Assembly (NCBI GenBank): GCA_016927595.1
Contig: JAFGMI010000049.1
Coordinates: 1-64,000 of the forward strand
Reading direction: 5' to 3'
Origin: Melioribacteraceae bacterium
GTDB taxonomy: Bacteria; Bacteroidota; Ignavibacteria; Ignavibacteriales; Melioribacteraceae
Length of the DNA: 64,000 nt
Below, in pieces: positions 18,996 through 44,930 of this stretch (position 1 is the first letter of the stretch; each line of letters starts with the position of its first letter). The notes below the pieces were generated by a model. That model was given only the letters and a program-made list of their open reading frames with translations. It was not told the origin of the DNA and searched no databases. The translations under genes and the position numbers were made by a program.

Positions 18996-20546
18996 ATGAA
19001 TACGAAATATTTTCAGGGTAACCGAATGCAAAAAATAATAATTACAATTTCTTTCCTGCTGCAGTTTTCAATTTTTACTTTAGGTCAGAATCCGGCAATA
19101 ATAAATTTGGATAGCACGCATCAGGTAATACGGGGATTCGGAGCTGCTAATATACTTCCCTGGCGTCCCGATATGACTCAGGATGAAATCAATACGGCTT
19201 TTGGAACCAATGAAGGTCAGCTTGGTTTTTCAATCCTTCGTCTCAGGCTTCCTTCATCGGTTAATGAATTTGCAATGAATGTCCCTACAGCACAGGCAGC
19301 GCATGAAATGGGTGTAACATTAATAGCCTCACCATGGTCTCCACCGGCATCAATGAAGACCAATAACAACACGGTTGGAGGTGAATTAAAAGAGAACAGT
19401 TATTCAGATTATGCGGCTCATTTAAAAAGTTTTGCCGATTATATGAATGATAACAATGCACCAATTTATGCGATATCGGTTCAGAACGAACCTGATGTTA
19501 CGGTAACCTATGAGTCTTGTGACTGGAATGCGGATCAGATGCTTAAATTCGTTAAGGAAAATGCTCCCGCAATCGGTACCAAAGTTATTGCCCCGGAGTC
19601 TTTTCAGTTTCGCAGAAATCTTTCCGATCCTCTTCTTAACGACTCTATTGCATGTGCAAATTTTGATATTCTTGGAGGGCATATTTACGGCGGCGGACTT
19701 TCGTCGTATCCTCTAGCTGAAAGCAAAGGTAAAGAAATATGGATGACGGAGCACCTGATACTGGAAACAGATTGGGAGAGCAGTCTTTCCACGGGAAAAG
19801 ATATGAATGATTGCATGACTGCCGGAATGAGTGCGTACATATGGTGGTACATTGTAAGATTTTACGGACCAATCTATGATGATGACTACCGCAGACCTGC
19901 CGGAACCGCGAAGGGACAGGTTTCAAAACGAGGTTTTGTTATGTCGAATTATTCCAGATTCATTCGACCGGGCTATTACAGAGTTGAAGCTGACTCATCA
20001 CCACAGTCCGATGTATTTGTGACTGCATATAAAAGCGATTCTACAATTGTTATCGTGGCTTTGAATATGTCGTCGGAAGATAAAACACAAACTTTTCAGC
20101 TGCAGAATGGTAATGTATCTTATTTTACACCGTACATTACTTCAGAAACGAAAAACTGCACACAGGAAACAGAAATTGATGTATCTGGTAATAGTATTAC
20201 TGCAGTTCTTGAACCGTTGAGCATCACAACGTTTGTATCCTCTGTTTATACTACATCTGTAAATACCGGATCTGCGAAGCCGGGTTCGTTCAAGCTGTAT
20301 CAGAATTATCCGAATCCGTTTAATCCTGAAACTACAATAAGTTTCTATGTGTCCAATTCGTCTTATGTTACGCTTAAAGTATTTGATGTTGTAGGCAGAG
20401 AAATCGAGACTCTTGTCGACGGAATTAAATCGCCGGGATACTATAATATGAACTTTGATGCATTCAGATTATCGAGCGGTATTTATTTTTATCAATTAAG
20501 AGCTGGTAATTATATCGAAACAAAAAAATTAGTTCTTCAGAAATAA
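18996..20546 (+). CDS. Secreted GH30 (glucuronoxylanase-like) with T9SS tail
   Basis: A 516-residue GH30 enzyme resembling subfamily 8 glucuronoxylanases, which cut the xylan backbone next to (4-O-methyl)glucuronate branches. A signal peptide ends at about residue 32. The (beta/alpha)8 barrel plus side sandwich spans about 35-425. The acid/base is E165 in S-V-Q-N-E-P-D and the nucleophile E252 in W-M-T-E-H-L. The T9SS tail begins near 430, with N-Y-P-N-P-F at 437-442. ATG 18996 has AAAGG six bases upstream; ATG 19026 is a second option closer to the signal peptide. A paralogue at 27437 shares R-G-F-G-A-A-N-I-L, P-E-S-F-Q-F-R-R-N and G-G-H-I-Y-G-G-G-L-like blocks but lacks the tail. The subfamily is inference. 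Confidence 0.88.
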   Translation: MNTKYFQGNRMQKIIITISFLLQFSIFTLGQNPAIINLDSTHQVIRGFGAANILPWRPDMTQDEINTAFGTNEGQLGFSILRLRLPSSVNEFAMNVPTAQAAHEMGVTLIASPWSPPASMKTNNNTVGGELKENSYSDYAAHLKSFADYMNDNNAPIYAISVQNEPDVTVTYESCDWNADQMLKFVKENAPAIGTKVIAPESFQFRRNLSDPLLNDSIACANFDILGGHIYGGGLSSYPLAESKGKEIWMTEHLILETDWESSLSTGKDMNDCMTAGMSAYIWWYIVRFYGPIYDDDYRRPAGTAKGQVSKRGFVMSNYSRFIRPGYYRVEADSSPQSDVFVTAYKSDSTIVIVALNMSSEDKTQTFQLQNGNVSYFTPYITSETKNCTQETEIDVSGNSITAVLEPLSITTFVSSVYTTSVNTGSAKPGSFKLYQNYPNPFNPETTISFYVSNSSYVTLKVFDVVGREIETLVDGIKSPGYYNMNFDAFRLSSGIYFYQLRAGNYIETKKLVLQK

Positions 20547-27436: not shown

Positions 27437-29359
27437 ATGAAATTTATTGAATTAGATTCTCAAAAGCTCAGTAGATTTATTCAAATTTACATTTGTTTGA
27501 TCTGTATACTGATTACAATGCAATTATCTGCTCAATCAATTACTATAAACGGCAGAGTTACTTATTCAAGAATCCCTGTTCAGTTTGTATCCGTCACTTT
27601 TATCGATAATGAAGATACTACAAAACAGTTTACAACTATGACCGATGACCGGGGCAATTATGAAATCGGTTTAATCACGGATGTAAATGATGATGAGAGT
27701 AATACTCCAACCAGGTTTAGCCTGGGACAAAGTTATCCCAATCCGTTTTCCTCATCTGCTGCTATACCTTACGGTTTAACTGAAGAATCTAACGTGGAGG
27801 TAACGATATATGATATACTCGGCAGACTAGTCCGAAAGTATGACGCCGGCAGGCAAATTGCCGGATTGCACAGTGTCATATGGGACGGCAGAAACAGACT
27901 CGGGCAGACGGTAGCTAACGGGATTTATTTTTACAGGCTGATTGCAGACGGTGAACCGCAAGTAAAAAAAATGATCTTCAATCAGAACGGGAATGGATCT
28001 TTTATGATACCGGGATCATTTTCTGTGAATCATAGTTCATTAAAGAAAACAAATGTGAATACAAATATATTTTCTAACACTTTTAAGGTAAGGATTCAAA
28101 ACACAAGCACAACCAATCCTATAATCATTCCGGAAACATTAGAAAATGTAGTAGTTCAAAACGATACTACGATAAATATTTCAGCGACACCTCTTCCGTT
28201 AGTAAAAATTGACTGCGACAGTCTGCACCAGGTTATAAGGGGTTTCGGTGCCGCTAATATACTAATGTGGAGACCCGATATGACGGATTATGAAATCGAA
28301 ACTGCTTTTGGAAATGAAGATGGTCAGCTCGGTTTTACTATTCTCAGGATTATGGTTGAACCTGATAGCAACCGATGGAGTGCCTCTGTTCCTTCTGCCC
28401 AAAAAGCTCTTGATCTGGGAGCAATTATAATTGCAGCTCCGTGGTATGCACCGTCAAATATGGTTGAAAACTATGATAATCGAAGCAGAGTACGACCTGA
28501 TATGTATGACGAGTATGCCGGGCACCTCAATGCGTTTGTAAAATACATGAATAGAAATAGCGTTCCAATATATGGTTTGTCAATACAGAATGAACCGGAT
28601 ATTACGGACAGCTGGACAAGCTGGAGTCCCGATGAAATGCTCACATTTATGCGGGATTATGCGGATGCTATTGAAGGAACATTAGTGATGGCTCCGGAAT
28701 CATTTCAATTCAGGAGAAATATGACTGACCCGATACTTAATGATTCAGCCGCTACGGCTAACACCGATATTATCTGCGGACATATTTACGGCGGCGGGTT
28801 AGCCGTATATCCGCTGGCTGAAGAAAAAGGGAAGGAAGTCTGGATGACCGAGCATTTATCAGGTGAAGACAGCCAGGCAAACGATTGGGATTGGGCTGTA
28901 GAAGTCGCTAACGAAATGAACGCAGTAATGCAGGCAAACATGAGTGCGTATGTCTGGTGGTATCTCGTCAGATATTATGGACCAATAAGCGATGGTACAA
29001 ATAACAGTGGAAGAAAAAGTGAGGTAACTAAAAAAGGTTACGTAATGTCGCAGTTCTCAAGATTTATACGCCCCGGGTATTTCAGAGTGGAAAGCAATGT
29101 TTCTCCTTTTAATAGCGACGTTGAGGTTACTGCTTATAAAGACCCTTTATCGTCCAAAATCGTGATAGTTGCCATTAACAACGGACCCACATCAATTGAT
29201 CATACATTTATGCTGGAGAATATAGCAACAACAACCTTTGCTACATACACCACAACTATAACAAAAAATTGCCGGAAGGGTGATGAATATGTTGTGACAA
29301 ATGGTACTTTTAATTTTACGCTTGATCCTATAAGTATAACAACTTTTGTTTCCGAGTAA
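27437..29359 (+). CDS. GH30 glucuronoxylanase-like enzyme with an internal T9SS/FlgD-like domain near its N-terminus
   Basis: A paralogue of the GH30 at 18996 with a different layout, 640 residues. After the signal peptide (1-32) comes a carboxypeptidase-regulatory-like segment (about 34-85, ending in D-R-G-N-Y-E-I-G-L). Then comes a full FlgD/T9SS-type sandwich at about 94-181 (S-Y-P-N-P-F at 99-104, G-I-Y-F-Y-R-L, V-K-K-M-I-F), a linker, and the GH30 domain at about 256-640 with E386 (S-I-Q-N-E-P-D) and E472 (W-M-T-E-H-L). The protein ends with the GH30 sandwich itself, T-T-F-V-S-E, so the sorting-like domain cannot act as a normal C-terminal signal. It may instead be a spacer. The next gene starts 20 bases later, indicating an operon. 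Confidence 0.88.
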   Translation: MKFIELDSQKLSRFIQIYICLICILITMQLSAQSITINGRVTYSRIPVQFVSVTFIDNEDTTKQFTTMTDDRGNYEIGLITDVNDDESNTPTRFSLGQSYPNPFSSSAAIPYGLTEESNVEVTIYDILGRLVRKYDAGRQIAGLHSVIWDGRNRLGQTVANGIYFYRLIADGEPQVKKMIFNQNGNGSFMIPGSFSVNHSSLKKTNVNTNIFSNTFKVRIQNTSTTNPIIIPETLENVVVQNDTTINISATPLPLVKIDCDSLHQVIRGFGAANILMWRPDMTDYEIETAFGNEDGQLGFTILRIMVEPDSNRWSASVPSAQKALDLGAIIIAAPWYAPSNMVENYDNRSRVRPDMYDEYAGHLNAFVKYMNRNSVPIYGLSIQNEPDITDSWTSWSPDEMLTFMRDYADAIEGTLVMAPESFQFRRNMTDPILNDSAATANTDIICGHIYGGGLAVYPLAEEKGKEVWMTEHLSGEDSQANDWDWAVEVANEMNAVMQANMSAYVWWYLVRYYGPISDGTNNSGRKSEVTKKGYVMSQFSRFIRPGYFRVESNVSPFNSDVEVTAYKDPLSSKIVIVAINNGPTSIDHTFMLENIATTTFATYTTTITKNCRKGDEYVVTNGTFNFTLDPISITTFVSE

Positions 29360-36965: not shown

Positions 36966-38708
36966 ATGAAAAAGATAATTATAATTTCTGTTTTATCAGC
37001 GCTTATGTTTGCAGGCTGCGGGAAAGAACCTGAAAAAGAATTTTTCAATAATCCGATCTTAGCTGGTTTTTATCCTGATCCAAGTATTTGCAAAGTAGGT
37101 GATAACTACTACCTGGTTAATTCTACATTTTCCTATTTCCCCGGCATACCTGTTTTTCACAGCGGGGATCTGGTAAATTGGAAACTGATTGGACATGCGC
37201 TGGACAGACCGGAACAACTAAGCCTTAATGGGCTAGGGGTTTCAAGAGGAATATTTGCACCTGCAATAAGTTATAACAACGGAACGTTTTATGTGACTTG
37301 TACATTGGTTGACGGCGGGGGAAATTTTGTTGTAAAAGCAGATAAGCCCGAAGGTCCCTGGTCTGACTTAATATGGCTTCCTGAAATAAATGGAATAGAT
37401 CCTTCACTGTTTTTTGATGACGACGGGAGAGCTTATATAACTTTCAATAGCGATGCGCCTGATAACAAACCTTTGTATGAAGGACATCGTACTGTAAGAA
37501 TAGTTGAATTCGATATTACTGATATGAAAGTTATTAGCGAACCAAAAATACTAATAAACGGAGGCGTAGATTTAAGTAAAAAGCCGATTTGGATTGAAGG
37601 ACCTCACATTTACAAAATCAATAATATGTATTACTTGACAGCTGCAGAAGGAGGTACGGCTGAGGATCATTCGCAAGTTATTCTGCGAAGCGGGAATGTT
37701 GACGGGCCTTATATAGCCTACGAAAACAATCCGATACTAACCCAGCGACACCTTGATCCCGGACGTCAATTCCCGGTAACCTGCACGGGTCATGCTGATT
37801 TCGTACAAAATGACAAAGGGAACTGGTGGGCAGTATTTCTCGGATGCAGACCGTATGAACCCTTCGGGGAAAATTTTTATAATACAGGAAGGGAAACATT
37901 TCTTGCACCTGTAAAATGGATAACGGATAACGACTCAACCGGAATAGGGTGGCCTGTAATAAATCCTGATTACGAGGAAGTCCAGTATAAATATCCTTTA
38001 CCTATAAAACCTGCCGGCGAAGAAGCAGATATACCATACAACGGAAACTTTACTTTAAGAGATAATTTTGATTCCGAACTTCTTCACCCCAGCTGGATTT
38101 TTCTTCGTACACCGCATGAAAAGTGGTATGAACTTAACGGTACTGATAATTATCTTTCAATCGATCTGCGTCCGGAAACCTGTTCAGGCGAAATGAATCC
38201 GAGCTTTATTGCCAGGAGACAGCAGCATTCAAACGGATATGCTATGACAGAATTCAATTTCGTTCCTGAAGCAGAGCACGAAAAAGCAGGGCTGTTGATT
38301 TTTCAGGACGAAACTCACTTTTATTTCATCTGCAAGTCGATGAAGGACAATGTACAAATGATCGAGTTGTATAAATCTTCCAACGACCATGATAACAATT
38401 TAGAACTGATAAAGGCTGATACATTGAGTGATTCGTATTATAATGAAAATATGATATTTAAAATTGAGACTCGCGGAAGGTATTATAATTTTTATTACGG
38501 CATTAATGAAAATGGACTTAAATTGTTAGCAGATAATATTGATGCGACTTATCTAAGCATCAGGAAAGCCTGGGGATTTACAGGCAACGTTTTTGCTATG
38601 TACGCGACTTCGCTGGGTAATGCTTCGTATAATAATGCAGTCTACAGCTGGTTTGAATATTCCGGCAATGATAGAGTATATCACAAAAATAATATGGACA
38701 CAAAATGA
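36966..38708 (+). CDS. Lipoprotein GH43 beta-xylosidase/arabinofuranosidase
   Basis: A 580-residue GH43 with a lipobox at L-M-F-A-G-C (Cys18), so membrane-anchored and probably facing the periplasm. The propeller (about 25-335) has base D38 in F-Y-P-D-P-S-I, the pKa-tuning Asp in G-I-D-P-S-L-F-F-D-D-D, and acid E211 in W-I-E-G-P-H-I-Y. A C-terminal sandwich (about 355-570) resembles the second domain of GH43 xylosidases (subfamilies 1, 11 and 12 type). It is not closely related to the two T9SS-tailed GH43 copies. It starts 12 bases after the GH115 gene and its stop overlaps the corrinoid protein start (ATGA at 38705-38708), so translation of carbohydrate and corrinoid genes is coupled. Confidence 0.9.
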   Translation: MKKIIIISVLSALMFAGCGKEPEKEFFNNPILAGFYPDPSICKVGDNYYLVNSTFSYFPGIPVFHSGDLVNWKLIGHALDRPEQLSLNGLGVSRGIFAPAISYNNGTFYVTCTLVDGGGNFVVKADKPEGPWSDLIWLPEINGIDPSLFFDDDGRAYITFNSDAPDNKPLYEGHRTVRIVEFDITDMKVISEPKILINGGVDLSKKPIWIEGPHIYKINNMYYLTAAEGGTAEDHSQVILRSGNVDGPYIAYENNPILTQRHLDPGRQFPVTCTGHADFVQNDKGNWWAVFLGCRPYEPFGENFYNTGRETFLAPVKWITDNDSTGIGWPVINPDYEEVQYKYPLPIKPAGEEADIPYNGNFTLRDNFDSELLHPSWIFLRTPHEKWYELNGTDNYLSIDLRPETCSGEMNPSFIARRQQHSNGYAMTEFNFVPEAEHEKAGLLIFQDETHFYFICKSMKDNVQMIELYKSSNDHDNNLELIKADTLSDSYYNENMIFKIETRGRYYNFYYGINENGLKLLADNIDATYLSIRKAWGFTGNVFAMYATSLGNASYNNAVYSWFEYSGNDRVYHKNNMDTK

Positions 38709-39373
38709 GTGAATTGATCGAACAAATCAGCAAGTGTATTGAACGAGGTAAAGTAGATAAAGTATCGCCCTATCCTCCTGATATGAGGGATCAGGAAGGT
38801 GCAGATGAACTTTCTGCGCGAGCAATTGAAGAAGGTCTCGGCGCCGATGAAATTCTTAAAGCCTGTAATTCGGGTATGCAGAACATCGGTGACCGCTTCG
38901 GACGAGGTGAAGTATTCGTCCCCGAATTACTGATGTCTGCTAGGGCAATGAACGCGGTAATGAAACACCTTAAGCCGTTCTTTCAATCCGGCACCGTAAA
39001 GGCAAAAGGAAAATTTATAATAGGAACGGTTGCCGGTGACTTGCATGATATCGGTAAAAATCTTGTATCAATGGTAGTTGAGGGTAACGGATGGGAAGTT
39101 ATTGATCTTGGGGTAGATGTAAAAACGAATAAGTTCATCGAAACAATAAAACAGCATCCGGATTCAATGGTGGGTCTGAGCGCACTGCTTACAACAACAA
39201 TGGGGAATATGGCAAATACAGTTAAAGAAATAAAATCTTTGTTCCCTCAAACAAAGGTAATTGTAGGCGGCGCACCTTTAACCAGAGAGGCGGCTGATCA
39301 AATGGGTGCAGATGGATATGCACGCGACCCTCAAGGTGCGGTTGGATTTTTAAATGGTATGCTGTATTCATAA
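38705..39373 (+). CDS. Corrinoid (cobalamin-binding) methyltransferase protein
   Basis: A cytosolic methyl carrier of 222 residues, the typical MtaC/MtbC/MttC size. The N-terminal helical cap (about 1-90) has the M-Q-N-I-G-D-R-F-G-R-G-E form. The B12-binding Rossmann domain (about 100-222) carries the base-off signature D112-L-H114-D-I-G117, with H114 as lower cobalt ligand, followed by the G-L-S-A-L and G-G-A-P-L blocks. Such proteins take a methyl group from a substrate methyltransferase and hand it to an acceptor enzyme. The start codon overlaps the GH43 stop in ATGA, and the acceptor-type homocysteine methyltransferase is 33 bases downstream. The placement inside a glucuronoxylan operon is the unusual feature here. 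Confidence 0.9.
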   Translation: MSELIEQISKCIERGKVDKVSPYPPDMRDQEGADELSARAIEEGLGADEILKACNSGMQNIGDRFGRGEVFVPELLMSARAMNAVMKHLKPFFQSGTVKAKGKFIIGTVAGDLHDIGKNLVSMVVEGNGWEVIDLGVDVKTNKFIETIKQHPDSMVGLSALLTTTMGNMANTVKEIKSLFPQTKVIVGGAPLTREAADQMGADGYARDPQGAVGFLNGMLYS

Positions 39374-39406
39374 CAGAAATTTTCAGATTTAACTTAAGAG
39401 CTTAAA

Positions 39407-40297
39407 ATGAGAAGTCTGCTAAAATCTCTTAAATCCGGTAAAGTACTTATTTCCGACGGGGCATGGGGTACGTTCCTTCATGAGAAGGGATTGAAATCAG
39501 GTGAATGTCCGGAATTGTGGAATATATCTAATCGTAATGCTGTACTCGAAATTGCAAAAAGCTATGTGGCTGCAGGTTCGGATATGATTCTTACAAATAG
39601 TTTCGGTGGAAGCCCTGTAAAACTCAATCATTATGGTTTGGAAGACAGAGCATACGAGTTGAATAAAGCAGCTGCGGAAATATCTCGTGAGGCTGCAGGG
39701 AATAGTTGTTTGGTGCTCGGATCAATCGGACCGACTGGAAAAGTGCTGATGATGGAGGAAGTGTCGGAGTCTGATATGTACGACGGTTTCTATCTGCAGG
39801 CTCAGGCATTAAAGGCAGGCGGTGCAGATGCAATATGTGTGGAAACCATGTCTGCTATTGATGAAGCCTCTTTAGCGGTGCGGGCAGCAAAGAAAGCAAC
39901 AAACCTTGAAATAATCTGCACTTTTACTTTCGATAAAACAAAAGCCGGTGAATACAGAACAATGATGGGAGTATCTCCGGCTGAAATGGTAAATACAGTA
40001 AAAGAAGCCGGAGCAGACGTTATAGGCACAAACTGCGGCAACGGATTTGTGAACATGATTGACATAGTAAAAGAAATAAGAAATGTTGACGCATACACAC
40101 CCGTGCTGGTGCATGCAAATGCCGGAATACCCGTCCTGGTTGATGGTGTATCAGTATTTCCCGATACTCCGGAATTTATGGCATCGCATATTAAAGAGCT
40201 TATTGATTGCGGAGCGAATATAATCGGAGGATGCTGCGGTACTACTCCGGCACACATCAGAGCAATGGTTACAGAAATTAATAAGATTTCTCAGTAA
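39407..40297 (+). CDS. Stand-alone homocysteine S-methyltransferase domain protein
   Basis: A 296-residue (beta/alpha)8 protein matching only the first, homocysteine-binding domain of cobalamin-dependent methionine synthase. It starts with D-G-A-W-G-T-F-L. The three zinc cysteines are visible: C210 in G-T-N-C-G-N-G, and C276 and C277 in G-G-C-C-G-T-T-P. There is no methyl-tetrahydrofolate domain, cobalamin domain or reactivation domain in the chain. The cobalamin part is supplied by the gene just upstream and the methyl-donor part is probably supplied by the URO-D-like gene downstream. The likely reaction is methyl-corrinoid plus homocysteine to methionine. It could instead use an S-methyl donor directly, like BHMT or MmuM. 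Confidence 0.85.
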   Translation: MRSLLKSLKSGKVLISDGAWGTFLHEKGLKSGECPELWNISNRNAVLEIAKSYVAAGSDMILTNSFGGSPVKLNHYGLEDRAYELNKAAAEISREAAGNSCLVLGSIGPTGKVLMMEEVSESDMYDGFYLQAQALKAGGADAICVETMSAIDEASLAVRAAKKATNLEIICTFTFDKTKAGEYRTMMGVSPAEMVNTVKEAGADVIGTNCGNGFVNMIDIVKEIRNVDAYTPVLVHANAGIPVLVDGVSVFPDTPEFMASHIKELIDCGANIIGGCCGTTPAHIRAMVTEINKISQ

Positions 40298-40349
40298 TAA
40301 ATTTCTAAAAAATAATTAATGTAAAAAATAATGTTCAATGGAGTGTGAA

Positions 40350-41378
40350 ATGACCGACAGGCAATGGGAAACACTGGTTAATATTATAAATGGAGAAAGA
40401 ACAGAAAAACTACCCGTGGGATTTATTATTGATAGTCCCTGGTTGCCGAATTGGTATGGTATTAAAATAATCGATTATTTCTCAAATGATGATCTATGGC
40501 TGAAGGCAAATCTGAAAGCTATCAATGACTTTCCGGAGGCAATATTCTTACCCGGTTTCTGGTCCGAGTTCGGCATGTGTACTGAACCGTCAGCTTTCGG
40601 TGCAAGAGTAACTTTCCCACCTGATGAGTTTCCGCATGCACATAAAATTATTAATTCTGCCGATGATATTGATGATCTGGTTGAACCCAACCCCAAAACA
40701 GATGGTCTGCTTCCCTTCATGCTGAATCGTTTGAAACTTGCACAACCTAAGATCGAGGATGCTGGACATAAAATTAAATTTGCCGTTGCACGTGGTCCGC
40801 TTAATATAGCAAGTTATCTTATGGGAACAACCGAGTTCCTGACAACATTGATGATGCAGCCGGATAAAGCAGAAATGCTGGTAAGGAAAATAACTTCTTA
40901 TCTTAAGAACTGGATAGAACTCCAGCGGGCAACATTCCCGACAATTGACGGCATCTTACTGCTTGATGATATAATCGGGTTTATGGGAGAGCCTGAGTTC
41001 AGAACTTTCGGACTGCCTTATTTCAAAGAACTTTTCGATGTGGATGTTACCGTGAGATTTTTGCATAACGATGCCCCTTGTAAAGTATCAGCTCCTATTC
41101 TTCCTGAAATGAATGTAAACCTTTTTAATATGGGTTTTGATGTTACGCTGAATGAACTAAAGGAAATTACTCAGCATAAGGTTACAATGCTTGGGAATAT
41201 ACCTCCGCGGGATGTATTAGCAGCAGGCAGTGCTGAGGATGTAACTCATGCTGTCATCGAATTGATTCAATCACTGGAAGACAGGAAACATGTTATAATT
41301 TCCTGCGGCGGAGGAATGCCACCCGATGTGAAAACGGAGAATATCAAAGCTTTCATCGAAGCAGTGAATAATAATTAA
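40350..41378 (+). CDS. URO-D superfamily methyltransferase, probable substrate-specific O-demethylase component
   Basis: A 342-residue barrel of the uroporphyrinogen decarboxylase superfamily, in the methyltransferase branch. The putative zinc set is H239 and C244 (L-H-N-D-A-P-C) with C319 (I-S-C-G-G-G-M-P-P). It ends with the P-D-V-K-T-E-N-I-K-A-F form seen in corrinoid methyltransferases rather than haem enzymes. The H-x4-C spacing differs from the H-x-C of coenzyme-M type MtaA/MtbA. Some aromatic O-demethylases use URO-D-type methyltransferases at the substrate step, so this is my candidate for methyl removal from 4-O-methyl-glucuronate. ATG 40350 has GGAG six bases upstream and is preferred to ATG 40338. 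Methylated aromatic acids freed by esterases are an alternative substrate. Confidence 0.75.
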   Translation: MTDRQWETLVNIINGERTEKLPVGFIIDSPWLPNWYGIKIIDYFSNDDLWLKANLKAINDFPEAIFLPGFWSEFGMCTEPSAFGARVTFPPDEFPHAHKIINSADDIDDLVEPNPKTDGLLPFMLNRLKLAQPKIEDAGHKIKFAVARGPLNIASYLMGTTEFLTTLMMQPDKAEMLVRKITSYLKNWIELQRATFPTIDGILLLDDIIGFMGEPEFRTFGLPYFKELFDVDVTVRFLHNDAPCKVSAPILPEMNVNLFNMGFDVTLNELKEITQHKVTMLGNIPPRDVLAAGSAEDVTHAVIELIQSLEDRKHVIISCGGGMPPDVKTENIKAFIEAVNNN

Positions 41379-43901: not shown

Positions 43902-44930
43902 GTGAATAAATTGAAAAAATTACTATCCAATTCTTTAAAGGTTGCAAATTTACAGAGACGCAGAATGGTTTTTCCTCTTATAGGTTTCCCCGGGTTAAAT
44001 TTAACCGGGGGCACTATCAAACTGGCTCAGCAGAACTACGGTGAACATTACAAGGTAGTAAAAGCTCTTGCCGATGAATTTAAACCGGATGCAATATTCC
44101 CCCTGATGGATCTTTCAGTAGAAGCCAATGCGCTTGGGCGTCTGACGGTATTTCCTAAGAAGGAATCGGCAACGGTTGTAAAAGATGAGTTTAGTATGGA
44201 TGAACTTAAATCATTTGAAAATATTAATATTGCTTATGATACAAGATTGCATGGATACGTAGAAACTATGAAAATGATGAGCATTGGTCTGCCAAAGGAC
44301 ATTTTGCGCGGAGCCTATGTTTCAGGTCCATATACACTTACAGCTCTGATTATGGGAGCCGATGAAGCTGCAATTTTAACAATTATGAATCCTGAATTGT
44401 TAATGCAGGTGTGTGAAGTTGCAACTGAAAAAATTCTGGAGTATGTAAGACTCCTTGTAGCCTCGGGTGCACAAATGATATGTGTTCTCGAGCCTAGCGC
44501 GGTGATGCTCGGTCCCGAACAGTTTAAACAATTTTCGGCAGATTATGTCGGGAGAATTGTTAATAGTCTCAGATATTCCGATGTGGCTGTAATTTATCAT
44601 GTTTGCGGGAACTCGATGCATCTGATAGAAACAATGTGCTCATCAGGTGTTGATGCGCTAAGCCTCGATTCATCCGATATGGGAATTGATCTTCCGCTTG
44701 CGGCATATAAGGTACCTGATAGTGTAATAATTATTGGAAACATCAGTCCGACTAAAAATCTGCTGAGAGGGAATCCGCATGATATTGAATCGGATGTACA
44801 GGAATTACTTGATCAAATGAAATCTTTTCCGAATTATATTTTAAGTTCGGGATGTGATCTTCCTCAGGAAACTCCGGTCGAAAATATCCATGCATTTATG
44901 AACGCCGGAAGAAAATATAAGTTGCAATAG
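43902..44930 (+). CDS. URO-D superfamily methyltransferase of the MtaA/MtbA type (methyl-corrinoid handling)
   Basis: The second URO-D-like methyltransferase of the cluster, 342 residues. It has the canonical corrinoid methyltransferase zinc site: H233-x-C235 in Y-H-V-C-G-N, and C318 in S-S-G-C-D-L-P, followed by T-P-V-E-N-I-H-A. This is the pattern of MtaA/MtbA, which move methyl groups between a corrinoid protein and a thiol. It differs from the gene at 40350, which has a wider H-x4-C. It could be the second methyltransferase of the pathway or an enzyme for another methylated substrate. No ATG lies near the start; GTG 43902 or TTG 43911 must be used, because ATG 43965 would cut conserved residues. 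A terminator follows. Confidence 0.8.
   Translation: MNKLKKLLSNSLKVANLQRRRMVFPLIGFPGLNLTGGTIKLAQQNYGEHYKVVKALADEFKPDAIFPLMDLSVEANALGRLTVFPKKESATVVKDEFSMDELKSFENINIAYDTRLHGYVETMKMMSIGLPKDILRGAYVSGPYTLTALIMGADEAAILTIMNPELLMQVCEVATEKILEYVRLLVASGAQMICVLEPSAVMLGPEQFKQFSADYVGRIVNSLRYSDVAVIYHVCGNSMHLIETMCSSGVDALSLDSSDMGIDLPLAAYKVPDSVIIIGNISPTKNLLRGNPHDIESDVQELLDQMKSFPNYILSSGCDLPQETPVENIHAFMNAGRKYKLQ

Follow-up and report, generated by a model that had tools for sequence, protein, structure and literature searches.

Organization of the GH30 gene and its neighborhood

The window analyzed here is a stretch of 64,000 nucleotides from a Melioribacteraceae genome. At positions 27437–29359 of its plus strand, translation gave an open reading frame of 640 amino acids with an ATG start and no interruption, in which translation and profile searches revealed a signal peptide, a nested CpD/T9SS module and a GH30 enzyme; all parts described below are also on the plus strand. 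The signal sequence (residues 1–32, 27437–27532) was recognized by reading of the sequence and coincides with a helix at residues 8–26 in the AlphaFold (AF2) model; it ends in SAQ and is without a lipobox. It is followed by the first half of a CpD domain (residues 33–81, 27533–27679), which is matched by positions 1–44 of the 82 of CarboxypepD_reg and modeled as four strands (33–43, 52–57, 64–68 and 74–81). A short variable linker (residues 82–91, 27680–27709; pLDDT below 50 at 82–90, 31% pairwise identity) leads to a T9SS type-A CTD/FlgD-like Ig domain (residues 92–184, 27710–27988), identified by profiles and structure alignment, and a long variable linker (residues 185–213, 27989–28075; pLDDT below 50 at 186–211, 14% pairwise identity) leads to the second half of the CpD domain (residues 214–252, 28076–28192), which was placed by AF2 strands at 214–221 and 233–240, structure alignment and an excision test. 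The GH30 glucuronoxylanase-like catalytic domain occupies residues 256–639 (28202–29353).

The catalytic domain consists of a TIM barrel and a beta domain (PF17189, 23.4 against 22) and resembles those of GH30 glucuronoxylanases (XynC-like; CtXynGH30, 4ckq; E-value 3e-101), with which it shares the NEPD and WMTE glutamates. These candidate catalytic residues (E386 and E472, respectively) were invariant in the alignment of relatives. The XynC model scored 383 bits, which is below the 650-bit cut-off of the NCBIfam XynC equivalog (NF052681). Unlike these enzymes, the protein carries its nested N-terminal module in place of a C-terminal tail or a C-terminal CBM. A paralogue (P0002, 18996–20546, plus strand) with 53% identity in the catalytic domain has an ordinary C-terminal T9SS type-A tail (residues 438–515, 20307–20540, plus strand; TIGR04183, 45.3 bits in the window and 48.6 bits in the genome search), as the original prediction had stated, whereas neither the sequence nor profile searches showed such a tail in the 27437 protein, which ends in ITTFVSE.

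Genes for a corrinoid-binding protein, a homocysteine S-methyltransferase-like protein and two UroD/MtaA-like methyltransferases lie at 38705–41378 and 43902–44930, within a xylan-degradation cluster, and similar genes were observed near GH30 genes at two other loci (L113 and L114). At a guess from their sequences and context, they may handle the methyl group of 4-O-methylglucuronate.

Identity of the internal domain

In this bacterial group, the T9SS tag normally forms the extreme end of exported proteins. T9SS signals have been defined as C-terminal, and substrate prediction searches for them there. In the 27437 protein, TIGR04183 (Por_Secre_tail) matched residues 100–180 with 36.9 bits (cut-off 23), the Pfam Por_Secre_tail model scored 31.5 bits (cut-off 27) and FlgD_ig (PF13860) scored 43.7 bits at residues 117–166 (cut-off 27), the highest Pfam score of this domain. 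The YPNPF, GIYFYRL and VKKMIF marks are all present. Thus, the proposal that an intact T9SS/FlgD-type domain precedes the catalytic domain of a tail-less protein was borne out by the profiles, at residues about 92–184.

In structure alignments of the predicted model, residues 91–184 matched the PorU CTD (VIA, Z 10.6, 27% identity), the PorZ CTD (Z 8.9) and 8gl8_D (TMt 0.67). The domain shares the seven-strand sandwich of T9SS type-A CTDs (TIGR04183/PF18962; PorU, PorZ and RemZ) and keeps their PNP, loop glycine, G-Y and lysine; unlike them, it is not C-terminal (about 455–460 residues come after it), lacks the terminal basic residue and is inserted within another domain. With the Ig-like domain of FlgD (PF13860; 3osv and 7eh9), to which 70 residues aligned at Z 9.1, it has in common the WDGRNxxGxxVxNG hairpin, whereas it has no flagellar context and begins with PNPF and ends with KK, as T9SS tails do. 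A chance profile match was rejected on the basis of two profiles above cut-off, structure and conservation.

Nesting of the CTD within one CpD domain

The original prediction placed a carboxypeptidase-regulatory-like stretch simply before the T9SS domain. The stretch is there, and the order had to be revised: a CpD part is also found past the CTD (residues 214–252), so that the CTD is nested, and nesting replaced a simple tandem arrangement. The first hint came from an M19 dipeptidase of the same genome, in which the CpD pattern picks up again past the T9SS domain. In the AF2 models (pLDDT 79 and 77), four strands, a disordered segment, the Ig domain, a second disordered segment and two further strands follow one another. 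Single contiguous CpD/CNA_B-like domains aligned with 84–86 residues spread across model residues 32–254; the two halves taken together matched 4iyk (Z 9.3, 84 residues), 6fwv (Z 9.4) and BcpA (Z 9.1 and 8.6). Since residues 33–81 and 214–252 match one CpD fold and residues 91–184 separately match CTD/FlgD structures, the CTD appears to be inserted in a CpD domain, which is like other CarboxypepD_reg/CNA_B-like domains (PF13620) except that the Ig domain splits it.

Profile searches agreed with the models. On the intact 27437 protein, CarboxypepD_reg scored 19.3 bits at residues 36–78 (cut-off 32.3) in the domain search and 26.2 bits in the excision comparison, where removal of the insert gave only 26.9 bits. 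The same excision raised the score from 26.7 to 37.7 bits in the M19 dipeptidase and from 36.1 to 45.1 bits in a GH30 relative (G067), and extended coverage of the 82-position profile from about 1–45 to 1–73 and 2–78, respectively. No gain was obtained with hand-scrambled second halves (25.3–26.9 versus 37.7 bits for M19; 34.6–35.7 versus 45.1 bits for G067). Relatives freed of the insert reached 45.1, 37.7 and 33.0 bits. In the predicted models, then, the CTD of the 27437 protein sits between strands four and five of a single CpD domain, a placement based on mutually agreeing models and weak-to-moderate profile gains.

Distribution and cargoes of the module

The home genome (3.85 Mb) contained 97 TIGR04183 matches, all but four near the end of their frames. 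Only the 27437 protein and the M19 dipeptidase (L010, 548 aa, contig C6) were true non-terminal cases; the other two proved artefactual, one being a stretch that resembles SdrD and the other a tail bordering on consecutive Ns. An apparent composite at C7:58397 turned out to be an ordinary tailed protein.

A search for this domain order in Ignavibacteria, which had been suggested as a check, identified orthologues in other assemblies and on several cargoes. Within the family, another 11 genes contained full-length relatives of the module at clear scores, and other families of the class had them as well. Of 391 genomes of the class, up to 78 carried it (E-value at most 1e-42, a few of the weakest rows being matches to the CTD only). 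Carriers were mostly labeled Ignavibacteria/Melioribacter, with some Neomarinimicrobiota, Kryptoniota and Calditrichaeota, although MAG labels may be wrong. Among 30 retrieved loci, 23 encoded GH30 enzymes (27437 included), five beta-propeller-like proteins and, in a single case each, a beta-helix and a CAP-associated-like protein; M19 dipeptidase, BNR/YCF48-like and GHL15 proteins were further cargoes. The idea that the module has been re-used is thus supported by its recurrence on cargoes unrelated in function. In the literature searched (open-licence papers), no description of an N-terminal or nested T9SS domain was found.

None of about 59 carriers examined, which represent few independent cargo lineages, had a C-terminal tail or a second PNPF tail. 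GH30 relatives from GTDB genomes carried the module in 16 cases (one of them adjoining a gap and visible only in part), a C-terminal tail in nine and a lipoprotein signal in four (judged by eye), and none combined two of these.

One 172-aa protein (L131; G017:C19, minus strand, about 2033–1515) consists of CpD half 1 and the CTD and ends in KKMLLLK followed by the stop, the module thus stopping directly past the CTD and making it a true tail; a protein on G557:C142 looks similar. Such a protein is possibly an ancestor or a breakdown product of the nested module.

A PorU sortase gene was present in the home genome (G000:C29:88873–92133, 966.7 bits) and in all 40 carrier genomes tested, a co-occurrence that does not discriminate between explanations because the class may carry the T9SS throughout. 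Many carrier genomes also encode another PorU-like protein of greater length (1600–2400 aa in most frames) that matches only positions ~4–740 of the model.

Conservation of the nested CTD

Across 16 carriers, pairwise identity was 0.53 in the CTD, 0.54 in the GH30 domain, 0.42 in each CpD half and 0.14 in the long linker. As the CTD equals the enzyme and exceeds its CpD host in identity, it is under strong constraint. This does not support the earlier suggestion of an idle spacer. Between two relatives (G050 and G051), dN was 0.067 in the CTD and 0.063 in GH30, with dS saturated for the CTD. Ordinary tails of neighboring enzymes were less conserved than their bodies (0.45–0.55 versus 0.53–0.69).

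The PNPF start was invariant across 59 distinct nested copies, and both the strand-7 lysine (K178) and the glycine of the L-beta3-beta4 loop (G129) were kept in 58 of them; the lysine was found in 83 of 91 tails. Other features have been lost. A terminal K/R was present in 87 of 91 home-genome tails versus two of 31 nested copies, the 27437 protein having N182-Q183 at the end of strand 7 where tails have a hydrophobic residue and then K/R. The PNPFNP form occurred in 81 of 91 tails versus four of 31 nested copies, all from M19 proteins, so that GH30-type copies have left it. M19 loci (L233–L256) showed a conserved KKM(I/V)QLDGG-G directly past the last CTD strand, and GH30 carriers a looser glycine-rich stretch (NQNGxG) where tails would end.

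The loop glycine is required for export of RgpB (PMC11285876). The motifs of type-A CTDs act chiefly in folding, a possible exception being a near-C-terminal lysine that contacts PorV (PMC10994853); retention of motif residues is for this reason weak evidence. By its place on strand 7, K178 would correspond to that lysine. In Porphyromonas gingivalis, RgpB shortened by two residues was trapped in the periplasm; C-terminal His-tag extensions were tolerated by PorU, PorZ and PPAD, whereas loss of the last residues was not (PMC11285876).

Evolution of the module and the enzyme

In the GH30 tree, forms with the N-terminal module, the C-terminal tail and the lipoprotein signal interleave, with at least two forced changes for the module, as expected of interchangeable addresses. 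The CTD of the 27437 protein is 74% identical to that of G050 and 44% identical to that of G067, and the corresponding values for the enzymes are 57% and 62%. On these sequence comparisons, module and enzyme appear to have partly different histories, and the difference in nearest relatives suggests that the N-terminal module has been exchanged between enzymes. The tree of nested CTDs contained two clades, a GH30-type (27 rows, other cargoes included) and an M19-type (four rows); GH30-type copies formed a clade of their own (SH-aLRT 99).

Possible roles of the nested CTD

Our best explanation is that the nested CTD still addresses the enzyme to the T9SS, probably uncleaved and with display through the N-terminus, a tentative reading to which we give somewhat less than an even chance. 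After Sec export, the CTD would fold as a lobe protruding from the CpD domain, and SprA/PorV could bind it as they do an ordinary CTD, through its fold and lysine. Nesting would let a non-terminal CTD be presented like a terminal lobe, with the linker at residues 185–213 returning to the host domain. The whole enzyme would be taken to the cell surface and stay displayed through its N-terminal module, the CTD probably not being removed, as in PorU and PorZ, whose CTDs are non-cleaved (PMC11285876). Grounds for this reading are that CTD profiles score above their cut-offs, the CTD is as conserved as the enzyme, recognition residues are kept, tails are excluded, address types are swapped and the domain resembles non-cleaved CTDs. 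Against it stand the loss of the terminal basic residue in 29 of 31 nested copies together with the trapping of truncated RgpB, and no working internal CTD was reported in the papers found. The original prediction held that a signal in such a place should not work, which may not hold; the general claim that the T9SS accepts an internal signal, so that a CTD in a loop of an N-terminal host domain takes C-terminally placed cargo across the outer membrane, seems less likely than not. A re-used docking module, close to the view of the original prediction with binding in place of spacing, is a serious competitor with a good minority chance of being right. Here the CTD fold would no longer be a T9SS address, the protein would be periplasmic with its signal peptide only, and the Ig domain would bind a partner or an oligosaccharide or rigidify the N-terminus. 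The mostly lost basic residue, the abandonment of PNPFNP by a separate GH30-type clade, the higher score of FlgD_ig than of Por_Secre_tail, the absence of tails from other enzymes of the cluster and the lack of precedent for an internal signal in those papers all fit docking, but K178 and G129 persist in 58 of 59 copies across functionally unrelated cargoes and C-terminal tails are completely excluded from the carriers examined. A GH30 enzyme that cuts polymer is, moreover, expected outside the cell rather than in the periplasm. Export by the T9SS is on this evidence slightly favored over docking.

The remaining explanations appeared much less probable. PorU might cut the linker at residues 82–91, in which case the CpD N-half would be coupled to lipopolysaccharide and the enzyme held by the packed CpD halves; a variable, unstructured linker directly before the CTD is where PorU cuts ordinary substrates, and the sortase is present in every genome tested, but the linker is short and the nearest structural matches are non-cleaved CTDs, which makes this two-piece form improbable. 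It is still harder to believe that the CTD is a functionless relic, surviving from a time when it was a tail, before fusion placed an enzyme domain after it. The short protein L131 could represent the source of such a fusion, but the CTD is as conserved as the enzyme, also in dN between G050 and G051, and the module occurs on several cargoes through the class. An assembly or annotation error fusing two genes, which had been named as a possible refutation, has a negligible probability and was rejected: nothing in its favor was found, and relatives 36–54% identical over the whole module show the same order in independent assemblies.

Implications for type IX secretion

Because the same arrangement occurs on other enzymes and in dozens of related genomes, the rule that the tag must come last needs testing. 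Existing profiles label proteins with a nested CTD as T9SS substrates, possibly wrongly. A conserved, portable internal CTD module would represent either a second route into the T9SS or an export signal that has been turned into another tool.
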